From Nitriliruptorales bacterium (GTDB lineage Bacteria > Actinomycetota > Nitriliruptoria > Euzebyales > Egibacteraceae), in the NCBI GenBank assembly GCA_007119035.1, contig SKQL01000005.1, positions 1 through 64,000 of the forward strand: a stretch of DNA of 64,000 bases, written 5' to 3'. The position numbers and the translations under genes were made by a program. Shown here piece after piece: positions 42,948 through 55,127 of this stretch. Position 1 is the stretch's first letter. Each line of letters begins with the position of its first letter. The notes below the pieces were generated by a model. That model saw only the letters and a program-made list of their open reading frames with translations, did not search any database and was not told the origin of the DNA.

Positions 42948-42976
42948 TTGACAGTGCTGCACGAGGGGAATACCTT
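42948..42976 (+). promoter_or_regulatory. Promoter TTGACA-N17-TACCTT
   Basis: -35 TTGACA 42948-42953; -10 TACCTT 42971-42976. Confidence 0.6.
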
Positions 42977-42988
42977 CGGCCAGGGAGT

Positions 42989-43002
42989 CGAACACATGTT
43001 CT
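42989..43002. promoter_or_regulatory. LexA/SOS-box-like operator CGAACACATGTTCT
   Basis: CGAAC-N4-GTTC core of the actinobacterial SOS box, just downstream of the promoter at 42948-42976. Confidence 0.65.
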
Positions 43003-43133
43003 CCTCCCTCGGCCTCTCTCTTCGGGACCGAGCTGGGACCGAGCGGCGTCAACGGTGCGAGGGGAAGGCGCATCCGAGACGCCCTCGGTCCTCTCCTTCC
43101 CGTCCCCATGGCCCCCGATCATGGAACGCGACG

Positions 43134-43400
43134 GTGACAAGACGATATCGAGATCCCGTGGAGATGTTGGAGTTGCGCCCCGACAGACGCGCGGGCGGTG
43201 CGCCCGCGCGGTTCCGTTGGAGGGGGAGCGTCCATCTCGTCACCGACGTCCTCGGATACTGGCGCGAGGACGCCGCATACTGGACGGGAGGTGGCATCGA
43301 CATCCCGCAGCGTGATCTTTGGCGGGTGGAGACCGCGGATCGCGTCTGCGAGTTGGTGCACGAGCACGGGGCATGGCGCCTTGCCCGGATCTGGGACTAG
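43134..43400 (+). CDS. DUF6504-like small protein
   Basis: From GTG 43134: VTRRYRDPVEMLELRPDRRAGGAPARFRWRGSVHLVTDVLGYWREDAAYWTGGGIDIPQRDLWRVETADRVCELVHEHGAWRLARIWD; family assignment from memory. Confidence 0.65.
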   Translation: MTRRYRDPVEMLELRPDRRAGGAPARFRWRGSVHLVTDVLGYWREDAAYWTGGGIDIPQRDLWRVETADRVCELVHEHGAWRLARIWD

Positions 43401-50396: not shown

Positions 50397-50444
50397 GGCG
50401 GCAGACTAGCACTGTGCTGGGGGCAGCGCCCTCGGCAAGGTGGG

Positions 50445-50468
50445 TATAGTGTTCCGAACACAAGTTCG
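50445..50468 (+). promoter_or_regulatory. -10 element TATAGT followed by LexA/SOS box CGAACACAAGTTCG
   Basis: TATAGT 50445-50450; CGAAC-ACAA-GTTCG 50455-50468, perfectly palindromic arms at the expected transcription start. Confidence 0.78.
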
Positions 50469-50493
50469 ATCTGGCCTGTGCCTCGAGGATCTT

Positions 50494-53400
50494 GTGGAGC
50501 CGTTCGTCCACCTTGCTGTTCGCACCGCCTACTCCATGCGGGACGGGGTCATCCGTCCCGCCGCGCTCGCTCCGGCCGTCGCGGATCGGGGGATGGGAGT
50601 CGTGGGCGTCGCTGACAGAGGGGGCCTCTACGGGGCGGTCCGCGTGGCTGATGCGTGCGCGAGAGCCGGTGTCCGGCCGATCTTCGGTGCGGACCTCGCG
50701 TTACGAGAGGACCCGTGGCGGCCGGGCTGGCGTGACGGTCGCCGGAGGGACGCCTTCAAGGGGCCCGGCAGCGGCGGCGCCTGGCTCGAGACCGACCGAG
50801 CGCGGGTGATCCTGCTCGCCCGGAGCCCCGAGGGGTATGCGGGGCTCTGCCGGACGGTGAGTGCCCACCATCTCGAGGCGCCCCGCGGATCACCGCAGGT
50901 GACCTGGGAGCAACTGGAGCGAGGCGGAGGCGGGGAGGGGTGCTTCGCTCTCCTCGGGGATGACTCACCGCTGGGCCGACTGCTGGCGGAGGGGCGCTCC
51001 GATGAGGCGATCGCGGAGACCCGTCGCTGGATGGAGTTGCTCGGTCCTGAGCGGGTGCTCATCGGCATAACGCATCATTTCGCCCGTGGAGACGACAGGC
51101 GAGCCCGGGCGGGCTTCGCCCTCGCCGACCGCCTCGGGCTGCGTGCGGTCGCCCATCAGGCCCCTCGTTACCTCGATCCGGCGGACGCGAGCGTGGCGGA
51201 CGTGGTGGCGGCGATCCGCGAGCAGGTGCCCGTCTCCGCACAGCACGCCCGTCGCTGCCGCCGCCGCAATACCGAGGGCTACCTCAAGTCACCCGAGCAG
51301 ATGGCCGCGGTGTTCGCCGAGCGCCCCGACGCTCTCGCGAACACCGCATGGGTCGCGGAGCGCTGCGTGGTGGACCTCGGCCTGGGGCAGCTGCGGGCGC
51401 CAGACTTCGTGGGTGCGGTCGATGCGCTCGCCGAGCTGCGTGGGCGCTGCTTCGCGGGCCTGCACGATCGGTATGCGCAGCCCGGTGAGGCCCACCGGGA
51501 GCGTCTCGACGCGGAGCTCGCGATGATCGAGCGCCTGGGCCTTGCCTCCTACTTCCTCACGGTGGCCGAGATCGTGGAGCGGATCCGCGCCAAGCAGATC
51601 ATGGTCGCGTGCCGCGGCTCGGCCGCAGGGAGCATCGTTTGCTTCGCCCTTCGGATATCCGATGTCGACCCGATTCGCCACGACCTCTGCTTCGAGCGGT
51701 TCATGAACCCGTTTCGTGACGACCTGCCCGATATCGACCTCGATGTCGAGTCCGCACGGCGAGAGGACATCTACTCCGATCTGCTCGCCCGCTACGGCGA
51801 GGAGCGGGTGGTGTGCGTGGCGATGCTCGAGCGGTTCCAGGCCCGGATGGCCATCCGGGAGGTCGGCAAGGCGCTCGGGATGCCGGCTGCGGAGATCGAT
51901 CAGATCGCGAAGAGCTTCCCGCACATCCGTGCTCGCGACGTGCGAACGGCCGTCGACTCCCTTCCCGAGATGGCGGGTCGCAATCTCGATGCCGCGCACC
52001 TGCGGCTCCTGTTCGACCTCGTCGAGCGACTCGACGGATTGCCCCGTCATGTCGCGCTGCACCCCTCCGGTGTGCTGCTCGGACCGGACGGCGAACGGCG
52101 CCTCCCCTCCGGGGCGGGGTCGCGTCTACGAGAGGTGGTCCCCGTGGAGCGAAGCGCCCACGGGTTCGCGATGGCGCAGTTCGACAAGGACGATGTCGAG
52201 GCGCTGGGGCTGTGCAAGCTCGACGTGCTCGGGGTGCGGATGCTGTCTGCCATGTCGCATGCCCGAGACGAGGCGAGCCGGGTCCGGGGCGCGGAGATCG
52301 ACTTCGAGCAGATAGATGACGACGACCCCGATACCTATGCGTTGATCCGGTCCACGCGCACGGTGGGGATGTTCCAGATCGAATCGCCTGGGCAGCGGGA
52401 GCTGCTCGGGCGCTTCCAGCCCGACCACGCTGAGGATCTCGTCATTGACATCTCCCTGTTCCGCCCCGGCCCGGTGAAGGGCGACATGGTCGAGCCCTTC
52501 CTCCTGCGTCGTCTGGGGAAGGCGGATCCGGTGATACCGCATCCCCTCCTCGAGCACGCCCTGGGCGAGACCTTCGGAGTGCTCGTCTACCACGAGCAGG
52601 TGATGCGCTCGGTGGCCGCCCTGACCGGCTGCACCCTGTCGACGGCGGACCTCGTGCGTCGCCGGCTGGGTGATGCGGAGAGCCTCCCGCGCATCAGGAG
52701 TTGGATACTCGCGGGAGCGAGGCAACGGGGTGTCCCCGCAGGCATCGCCGAGTCGTTGATGGCCGCGCTCGAGCAGTTCGCCTCATTCGGGTTCTGCAAG
52801 GCCCACGCTGCGGCGTTCGCAGTGCCGACATACCGGTCAGCGTGGCTCAAGGCGCACTTCTGCCCCGAGCTCGTCGCCGGGTTGCTCACCCATGACCCTG
52901 GCATGTACCCCCGGCGACTGATCCTCTCCGACGCGCGGCAGTTCGGGATCCTGGTGCTGCCCCTCGACGTCAACCGGTCCGACGGGGTCTACCGGGTCGA
53001 GCAGGTCGCCGATGCCCCCGTGCCGGAGGTGGCGAGCGGGTATGACTATGGGGATGCGGGTGACGGGCGGCGCTACGGCATCCGGCTCGGGCTCCAGGAC
53101 GTCGCGGGGATCGACGAGGCGATGATCGACTCACTGCTGGCCGGCCGCCCTTTCACGGATCTCCAGGATCTTCGGGAGCGCAGCCGCCTGTCACGGCCGG
53201 TGGCCGAGGCGCTCGCTCACGTCGGAGCGCTGGACGGCATCGGGGGCGGAGCAGGGCGGCGGGACCTCCTGCTGGAGGTGTCCGAGCGCTGGTCCGCGCC
53301 CGGGCGAGCCGTGGCGCAAAACGACCAGCTTCACCTTATCGCCCCCGAACCACCCGCGGGCCTGGGTGATTACCGCCCCTCGGAGCAGGTTCGTGCTGAG

Positions 53401-53949
53401 CTGCAGGTGCTGGGGCTCGATGCGAGCTATCCGGTGATCAGCTTCTACGAGCTCCTGCTCGACGTGCTCGGCGCCACCCGGGCGGCGGACCTCACCCGCA
53501 TCGAGGACGGGAGACGCGTGCGGATAGCGGGGGTGAAGGTCGCCACCCAGACTCCACCGGTGCAGTCGGGGCAGCGTGTGATCTTCCTGTCCCTGGACGA
53601 CGCGACCGGCGTGGGGGACGCGGCCTTCTTCGAGTCGGTCCACGACCGCTGCGCGGCGACGGTGTTCGGATCGTGGCTCCTGTTGGCCGAGGGGACCCTG
53701 CGACGCAGCGGTGCGCGCGGCGTGTCGCTCAACGCCGATCGGGCGTGGGATCTCACCCACCTGATGCGCGCATGGCGTGAGGGCGGGCGGGCTGGCCTCG
53801 ACACGGCGCTGTCCGCGATCGACGACGGTGGCCACGCCGGCCGTGGGGGCGGGAGCGTCCCGACGACCCGTCCACGGGTCCCGCGGACGAGCCCGTACGG
53901 CGACCTGCCCCGCCACCTCTGGCACCGCTCACCAGGATCCTCCGGATGA
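50494..53949 (+). CDS. dnaE2: Error-prone DNA polymerase III alpha subunit
   Basis: PHP N-terminus (VHLAVRTAYSMRDGVIRP, GVADRGGLYGAVRVADACARAGVRPIFGADL), RGSAAGSIVCFALRISDVDPIRHDLCFERFMNP, DLPDIDLDVESARRE. GTG 50494 (after GAGGA) preferred because the ORF-track start lies upstream of the inferred promoter. Confidence 0.93.
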   Translation: MEPFVHLAVRTAYSMRDGVIRPAALAPAVADRGMGVVGVADRGGLYGAVRVADACARAGVRPIFGADLALREDPWRPGWRDGRRRDAFKGPGSGGAWLETDRARVILLARSPEGYAGLCRTVSAHHLEAPRGSPQVTWEQLERGGGGEGCFALLGDDSPLGRLLAEGRSDEAIAETRRWMELLGPERVLIGITHHFARGDDRRARAGFALADRLGLRAVAHQAPRYLDPADASVADVVAAIREQVPVSAQHARRCRRRNTEGYLKSPEQMAAVFAERPDALANTAWVAERCVVDLGLGQLRAPDFVGAVDALAELRGRCFAGLHDRYAQPGEAHRERLDAELAMIERLGLASYFLTVAEIVERIRAKQIMVACRGSAAGSIVCFALRISDVDPIRHDLCFERFMNPFRDDLPDIDLDVESARREDIYSDLLARYGEERVVCVAMLERFQARMAIREVGKALGMPAAEIDQIAKSFPHIRARDVRTAVDSLPEMAGRNLDAAHLRLLFDLVERLDGLPRHVALHPSGVLLGPDGERRLPSGAGSRLREVVPVERSAHGFAMAQFDKDDVEALGLCKLDVLGVRMLSAMSHARDEASRVRGAEIDFEQIDDDDPDTYALIRSTRTVGMFQIESPGQRELLGRFQPDHAEDLVIDISLFRPGPVKGDMVEPFLLRRLGKADPVIPHPLLEHALGETFGVLVYHEQVMRSVAALTGCTLSTADLVRRRLGDAESLPRIRSWILAGARQRGVPAGIAESLMAALEQFASFGFCKAHAAAFAVPTYRSAWLKAHFCPELVAGLLTHDPGMYPRRLILSDARQFGILVLPLDVNRSDGVYRVEQVADAPVPEVASGYDYGDAGDGRRYGIRLGLQDVAGIDEAMIDSLLAGRPFTDLQDLRERSRLSRPVAEALAHVGALDGIGGGAGRRDLLLEVSERWSAPGRAVAQNDQLHLIAPEPPAGLGDYRPSEQVRAELQVLGLDASYPVISFYELLLDVLGATRAADLTRIEDGRRVRIAGVKVATQTPPVQSGQRVIFLSLDDATGVGDAAFFESVHDRCAATVFGSWLLLAEGTLRRSGARGVSLNADRAWDLTHLMRAWREGGRAGLDTALSAIDDGGHAGRGGGSVPTTRPRVPRTSPYGDLPRHLWHRSPGSSG

Positions 53950-55127
53950 CGCGCCCGACCGAGCCGATCCTGCACATCGACATGGACGCGTTCTTCGCCG
54001 CGGTGGAGGCCCGGCGGGACCCGAGCCTCGCGGGCAAGCCATTGCTGATCGGTGGTGCGGGCGGCAGGGGGGTGGTGGCCAGCGCGTCCTACGAGGCCAG
54101 GGCGTTCGGGATCACCTCGGCGATGCCGATGGCGAGTGCCATCCGGCGCTGCCCGCATGCGCTCGTGCGATCGCCTGACTTCGCCGCGTACCAGGAGGCG
54201 TCGTCGACGCTCATGGAGATACTCCGCTCGGTTACGCCCCTCGTCGAGCCGCTCTCCCTGGACGAGGCGTTCTGCGATGTGGGCGGCAGCGTCCGCCTGT
54301 TCGGGGAGCCCCCGACCATCGCACGGTCGCTGCGCCAGCGTGTCACCGAGGAGCTCGGGCTCCCCTCGAGTGTCGGCGTGGCCAAGAACAAGTTCCTCGC
54401 CAAGCTCTGCAGCGCCAAGGCGAAGCCCGAGGGCCTCCTGCATCTCAGGGAGGGGGAGGTCGATGCGTTCCTCGCTCCGCTCGACGTCCGTGACCTCTGG
54501 GGGGTCGGTGCGCAGACCGCGCACCGCCTCGAGCGCTTCGGCATCAGGCGCGTCGGAGACGTGGCCGCGACCGAGGAGGCGACCCTGGTGCGGCTCGTGG
54601 GCAAAGCTGCGGGAGCGCAGCTGTCCCGCCTGTCCCACGGATGGGATCCTCGGCCGGTGGTGCCGACCGAGGCCGCCAAGGGGATGAGTGCGGAGGAGAC
54701 CTTCGACACGGACGTCGATGACCCCGAGGTGCTCCGAAACGAGTTGTTGCGCCTAGCCGAGCGGGTGGGGCGCCGACTTCGCCGAGAAGGCGTAGCAGCC
54801 CGGACGGTCACGCTCAAGTTACGTTACGCCACGTTCCAGACGATCACCCGCTCACGGACGTTGACGCTTCCCACCGAGCAGGCGACCGAGTTGCACCAGG
54901 AAGCCGTGGCGCTCCTCGACGCGCTCCGCCTCGAGCGCGTGAGGGTCCGCCTCATCGGCCTCGCGACCAGCAACCTCGTGGCCTCTCGGGGCTCCGGGCA
55001 GTTGGGCCTGCTCACAAGCGACCGGTGGCGTCGCCTGGAACGAGCCACCGACGATGCCCGTGCGCGTTTCGGTGACGACGCGGTGACCCGCGGTGCCCTC
55101 CTCGATCCCGAGGAGGGGGAGAGCTGA
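53946..55127 (+). CDS. dinB: DNA polymerase IV (Y family)
   Basis: ILHIDMDAFFAAVEARRDPSLAGKPLLIGG, VVASASYEARAFGITSAMP, EPLSLDEAFCDV, VGVAKNKFLAKLCSAKAKPEG; ATGA overlap with dnaE2. Confidence 0.95.
   Translation: MTRPTEPILHIDMDAFFAAVEARRDPSLAGKPLLIGGAGGRGVVASASYEARAFGITSAMPMASAIRRCPHALVRSPDFAAYQEASSTLMEILRSVTPLVEPLSLDEAFCDVGGSVRLFGEPPTIARSLRQRVTEELGLPSSVGVAKNKFLAKLCSAKAKPEGLLHLREGEVDAFLAPLDVRDLWGVGAQTAHRLERFGIRRVGDVAATEEATLVRLVGKAAGAQLSRLSHGWDPRPVVPTEAAKGMSAEETFDTDVDDPEVLRNELLRLAERVGRRLRREGVAARTVTLKLRYATFQTITRSRTLTLPTEQATELHQEAVALLDALRLERVRVRLIGLATSNLVASRGSGQLGLLTSDRWRRLERATDDARARFGDDAVTRGALLDPEEGES

Follow-up and report, generated by a model that had tools for sequence, protein, structure and literature searches.

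In the ImuA'-ImuB-DnaE2 mutasome of Mycobacterium and Caulobacter, which is under LexA control, the ImuB-C domain belongs to a fusion protein with a dead Y-family polymerase that acts together with ImuA. The same domain exists as a standalone protein, which was reported as SOS-linked in 2013 (PMC3765255), connected in 2019 with DnaE2 and Y-family polymerases (PMC6511836) and assigned in 2026 to predicted complexes with DnaE2B, an active PolY and RecA (PMC12926913). Published complex models place the ImuB-C barrel on the PHP domain of DnaE2. In the case of the ImuY-DnaE2 system, the accessible part of its description presents a standalone ImuB-C of 80 aa with DnaE2 under LexA/RecA control, all in one operon and with a Y-family partner that is predicted to be inactive; UV mutagenesis needs both ImuY and DnaE2, and that part of the description does not mention a leader.

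The locus analyzed here lies in a window of 64,000 nucleotides (the whole stretch of DNA under study) from a Nitriliruptorales bacterium. It resembles the DnaE2B-PolY-[ImuB-C]-RecA modules (PMC12926913, e.g. Tessaracoccus lapidicaptus) in its small separate ImuB-C and its actinobacterial host, in a DnaE2 that is not of the ImuB-linked type, in that no ImuB was found, and in a Y-family polymerase whose motifs are intact and which also has a RecA-NT-like motif. In contrast to those modules, the ImuB-C gene of the window is 7 kb away from dnaE2-dinB and has its own putative SOS promoter and a conserved leader RNA. The ImuB-C domain, DnaE2 and candidate LexA control are also common to the ImuA'-ImuB-DnaE2 mutasome, whereas a fused ImuB and that type of DnaE2 are both missing from the window. 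What appears to be new at the locus is the leader hairpin between the SOS box and the gene (Table 1).

Altogether, the DUF6504 gene of the window very probably is repressed by LexA and codes, behind a hairpin leader, for the standalone ImuB-C of a split mutasome. The family, box, promoter, regulon, linkage, leader and the failure to find an ImuB are read from the sequence, while we infer that the gene is induced, that the complex forms and where the protein docks. After DNA damage, RecA would inactivate LexA, and the ImuB-C gene and dnaE2-dinB would be released together through their boxes at 42989 and 50455. The 88-residue all-beta protein would act as the adaptor, a role filled elsewhere by the ImuB tail, and would dock on the PHP region of DnaE2 to link it to DinB, which could in turn bind RecA through its C-terminal RecA-NT-like motif, as literature models suggest for both contacts. 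In the order to which the window belongs, the mRNA would begin with the conserved hairpin leader as a control element for the ImuB-C gene. A bolder and rather doubtful extension is that the leader could be a dedicated regulatory RNA of this mutasome subunit, for example one bound by ImuB-C itself, whose feedback would cap SOS mutagenesis after transcription in a lineage that keeps the gene away from dnaE2. In any case, the data indicate that the detached ImuB tail would be an SOS gene across a class of poorly known Actinobacteria, which supports the view of ImuB-C as a real mutasome subunit, and they offer a structured leader, dedicated to a single subunit, as a candidate RNA layer in SOS mutagenesis. 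Both the SOS role and the RNA layer are testable thanks to the cultured relatives in the class (Egibacter, Euzebya and Nitriliruptor).

Table 1. Features of the ImuB-C locus and of its dnaE2-dinB partners in the window.
Feature	Position	Strand	Basis
Sigma-70-type promoter, TTGACA-N17-TACCTT	42948..42976	+	Sequence; position and form kept 5' of the box in relatives
LexA operator (SOS box), CGAACACATGTTCT	42989..43002	+	Putative; same box at lexA, recA and dnaE2 of the own genome
Leader RNA hairpin (model R1), covarying 17-bp stem, loop GGGGAAGG at 43061-43068	43039..43088	+	Covariation; no Rfam match
CCTTCCC, complementary to the apical loop of the hairpin	43095..43101	+	CCTTCC conserved in relatives
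Standalone ImuB-C protein (DUF6504, PF20114), 88 aa, GTG start	43134..43400	+	Pfam match, ImuB-tail homology, fold model
SOS box of dnaE2, CGAACACAAGTTCG	50455..50468	+	Exact CGAAC-N4-GTTC
dnaE2, DUF6504-linked type (DnaE2B-like)	50494..53949	+	Start set 3' of the box at GTG 50494
dinB/PolY; motifs DMDAFFA and SLDEAF; C-terminal RecA-NT-like motif (about 55023-55109)	53946..55127	+	Motifs; tail by eye

The DUF6504 protein and its candidate polymerase partners

A first-pass annotation of the window, made from its letters, had described the gene at GTG 43134 as DUF6504-like and suggested an HMM search. The core that it quoted is present, and the 88-aa ORF matches PF20114 (Pfam) across nearly the whole profile (positions 1-101 of 103) with E 1.1e-10, scoring 42.1 bits where the cut-off is 24.2. 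On the other hand, the protein cannot be called uncharacterised, as was then proposed, since its family is ImuB-C, known from the 2013, 2019 and 2026 reports cited above. The name DUF6504 was not found in the ImuB-C literature searched, so the identity of the two was tested here through tail match, profile comparison and fold. The C-terminus of a Rhizobium ImuB aligns with PF20114 over most of its length (E 0.013, under the curated cut-off), and hhalign relates DUF6504 to alphaproteobacterial ImuB tails (P 1.3e-5, probability 81%) and weakly to actinobacterial ones (P 0.06). The AlphaFold2 model of the protein is all-beta, with nine strands and no helix (pLDDT 92.1), and has no structural neighbour in the PDB with E below 0.001, in agreement with the published ImuB-C, an all-beta fold without PDB neighbours (PMC12926913). 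As judged from sequence and model, DUF6504 and the ImuB-C of the literature are one and the same domain, and the protein is of a kind already known. No relatives of the protein were found in viral contigs, and a DUF6504-like protein that is 35% identical was seen outside Actinobacteria, in an Anaerolineales MAG (L161).

The dnaE2 and dinB genes follow downstream of the DUF6504 gene. The longest ORF of dnaE2 runs through its SOS box (window 50440-50494); translation probably starts at GTG 50494 or further downstream. The DinB tail LERATDDARARFGDDAVTRG resembles, by eye only, the N-terminus of the RecA of the same genome, LDMAIGQIEKQYGKGAIMRM. The class sample comprised 66 genomes of Nitriliruptoria, with relatives from Egibacteraceae, Euzebyaceae and Nitriliruptoraceae among them, and 52 of these carry a DUF6504 gene, one each. 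The link with DnaE2 and Y-family loci, which the first-pass annotation had proposed, is supported by gene order: in every one of the 29 genomes that have the two genes on a single contig, the linked-type dnaE2 is preceded by DUF6504 on the same strand. The distance is 6.5 to 21 kb in 12 genomes of the window's own order, against about 500 bp or less in 11 genomes of other families and up to 5.7 kb in 6 more. Of the 52 genomes that carry DUF6504, 45 also have this DnaE2, which bears out the expected co-occurrence, while 7 genomes have DUF6504 only, 6 have DnaE2 only and 8 have neither (p 0.0017); the one-sided genomes, being those with DnaE2 and no detected DUF6504 and the reverse, are mostly fragmented MAGs. 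An ImuB-type Y protein was detected in none of the 52 genomes with DUF6504 and in 5 of the 14 without it (p 0.0002), figures to be read, like the previous ones, as counts over related genomes that are not independent, with 4 of the 5 ImuB genomes belonging to one genus.

The locus has no fused ImuB-C/ImuB, its protein being a standalone one, and no second Y-family protein besides DinB was found in the genome as assembled (69% complete). In a tree without a labelled DnaE2B reference, the DnaE2 of the window groups with those of the class and with a DUF6504-linked DnaE2 of Nonomuraea (100/100), apart from the ImuB-linked DnaE2; in Nonomuraea, DUF6504, a near-perfect box and dnaE2 adjoin. A dnaE2-like match with one in-frame TGA was also seen in a relative (G010:C37:2661-3602).

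A different role was put forward in 2013, when neighbourhoods that also hold Ku, ligase and radical-SAM enzymes suggested a DNA-binding ImuB-C (PMC3765255). The standalone protein could thus bind damaged DNA itself and recruit repair polymerases, with no bridge between DnaE2 and DinB, and its conserved basic and aromatic residues would suit such a function. However, the gene keeps with one DnaE2 type in the class and the published models put the barrel on the PHP domain, and a direct DNA-binding role seems unlikely next to that of an adaptor between DnaE2 and DinB.

Probable LexA control of the gene

The promoter and the box described in the first-pass annotation were both found in place, with TTGACA at 42948-42953, a 17-nt spacer, TACCTT at 42971-42976 and the box starting after 12 nt; the SOS box probably overlaps the transcription start. 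Exact CGAAC-N4-GTTC occurs at just two sites of the 64-kb window, the one at 42989 and another at 50455, upstream of dnaE2, where the first-pass annotation had also claimed an SOS box. Counted by strand, these give three matches, compared with a mean of 0.35 in shuffled sequence, where three or more were reached in 2 of 100 shuffles. Against the longer form CGAAC-N4-GTTCG, the box at 42989 has one mismatch (GTTCT), and matches with one mismatch show no clear excess in the window (20, with 14.9 expected by chance). Both facts would be compatible with a chance match in front of a constitutive gene, a reading made very improbable by the class, where the box is kept within 200 bp in 50 of 51 genes and directly behind promoter elements.

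This footprint was obtained from 51 DUF6504 upstream regions, by taking the best match to CGAAC-N4-GTTCG at 200 bp or less from the start. The box is perfect in 44 of them and has one mismatch in 6, and the remaining region has a perfect box about 390 bp upstream; shuffled upstream regions give 0.1% perfect and 1.3% one-mismatch boxes, and windows elsewhere in these loci 0.8% perfect ones. The core palindrome is almost fixed across these regions and its flanks are variable, the pattern expected of an operator. A -10-like element stands directly 5' of the box in 40 of the 51 regions (1.1 in shuffles), and TTGAC-N16-20-TANNNT is found in 25 (0.02 in shuffles). The class box agrees with the ChIP-defined LexA motif of Streptomyces, tCGAAC-N4-GNNCGa (PMC9380542). 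In the window's own genome, the box is found 116 bp before lexA, 139 bp before recA and also before dnaE2, the lexA gene (C124:5497) thus having an SOS box of its own. LexA control of the DUF6504 gene is supported by these sequence data, and the dispersed SOS mutasome regulon suggested at first pass gains support from the footprint, the boxes of the genome and the conserved gene order.

Some other genes of this genome are worth recording, all of them named by eye. A small LysM-like protein, encoded divergently from lexA (G000:C124, about 5352; L064), resembles division inhibitors of the YneA type. Perfect SOS boxes precede a DUF222/HNH (13E12-like) gene (G000:C81:6818; L062) and that of a radical SAM protein (G000:C126:4660; L063), which are further candidate SOS genes.

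A conserved hairpin in the leader

The hairpin at 43039-43088 was absent from the first-pass annotation. It lies between the box and the DUF6504 gene in the window's own family and in a sister family, with GGGAAG as the invariant core of its loop. In the alignment of leaders, 12 stem pairs have changed on both sides, and in all five pairing measures the stem scores above the full set of 500 shuffles as well as every slid register. The R1 model, for which 15 sequences were used, finds the leader in 21 of the 66 class genomes, always as one copy per genome, just upstream of DUF6504 and within one order, genomes outside the model included. No leader was found in the remaining families of the class, whose DUF6504 sits nearer dnaE2, nor a credible one among 247 genomes elsewhere in the phylum, where one extra match (E 0.006) is at chance level for a search of that scale. 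With Rfam 15, all matches of the window leader fall far under the gathering scores, and six relative loci gave no match.

A near-perfect inverted repeat behind a promoter could also act at the DNA level, for instance as a repeat or as another operator for a protein, and the loop and CCTTCCC do form an inverted repeat of each other. Yet the element is single-copy in each genome, its stem changes are compensated around a fixed loop, and on the transcript strand G-U pairs outnumber A-C ones in the stem by 32 to 9, an excess that favours an RNA element. A DNA palindrome is accordingly improbable. Transcription attenuation or termination, with read-through set by translation or by a bound factor, would in turn fit a very stable hairpin (about -40 to -53 kcal/mol in four leaders) placed between promoter and gene. 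Nevertheless, no U tract follows the hairpin, those leaders of the set that were read by eye showed no conserved upstream reading frame, and such an attenuator seems rather unlikely. The whole UTR of the window has an unremarkable folding energy (z -1.1); its 77-nt leader core reaches z -2.7, and the relatives -3.1 to -4.7.

Most likely, as far as sequence comparison goes, the hairpin is a cis-acting leader RNA for post-transcriptional control of the DUF6504 gene alone, and the combination of a conserved loop with a variable stem suggests that a protein or an RNA binds there. The CCTTCC motif 3' of the hairpin is present in 13 of 20 leader genomes and 10 of 15 genera, compared with a mean of 0.8 genomes and a maximum of 4 in shuffles. 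A pseudoknot between loop and CCTTCCC within one intact molecule was judged unlikely, because the 17-bp stem stands between them and the linker from stem to CCTTCCC has only a few nucleotides; the two may pair between molecules or in an alternative fold. Predictions for some relatives include an outer helix that closes over CCTTCCC. In two genomes of the leader-bearing families (L005 in G014 and L017 in G024), DUF6504 and its SOS box are kept and the hairpin is missing. In another relative (L022 in G003), the roughly 300 bp between leader and DUF6504 gene are taken up by CCTCCCCAGGGTTTGTCTGCCGGGCC-like units repeated nearly in tandem.
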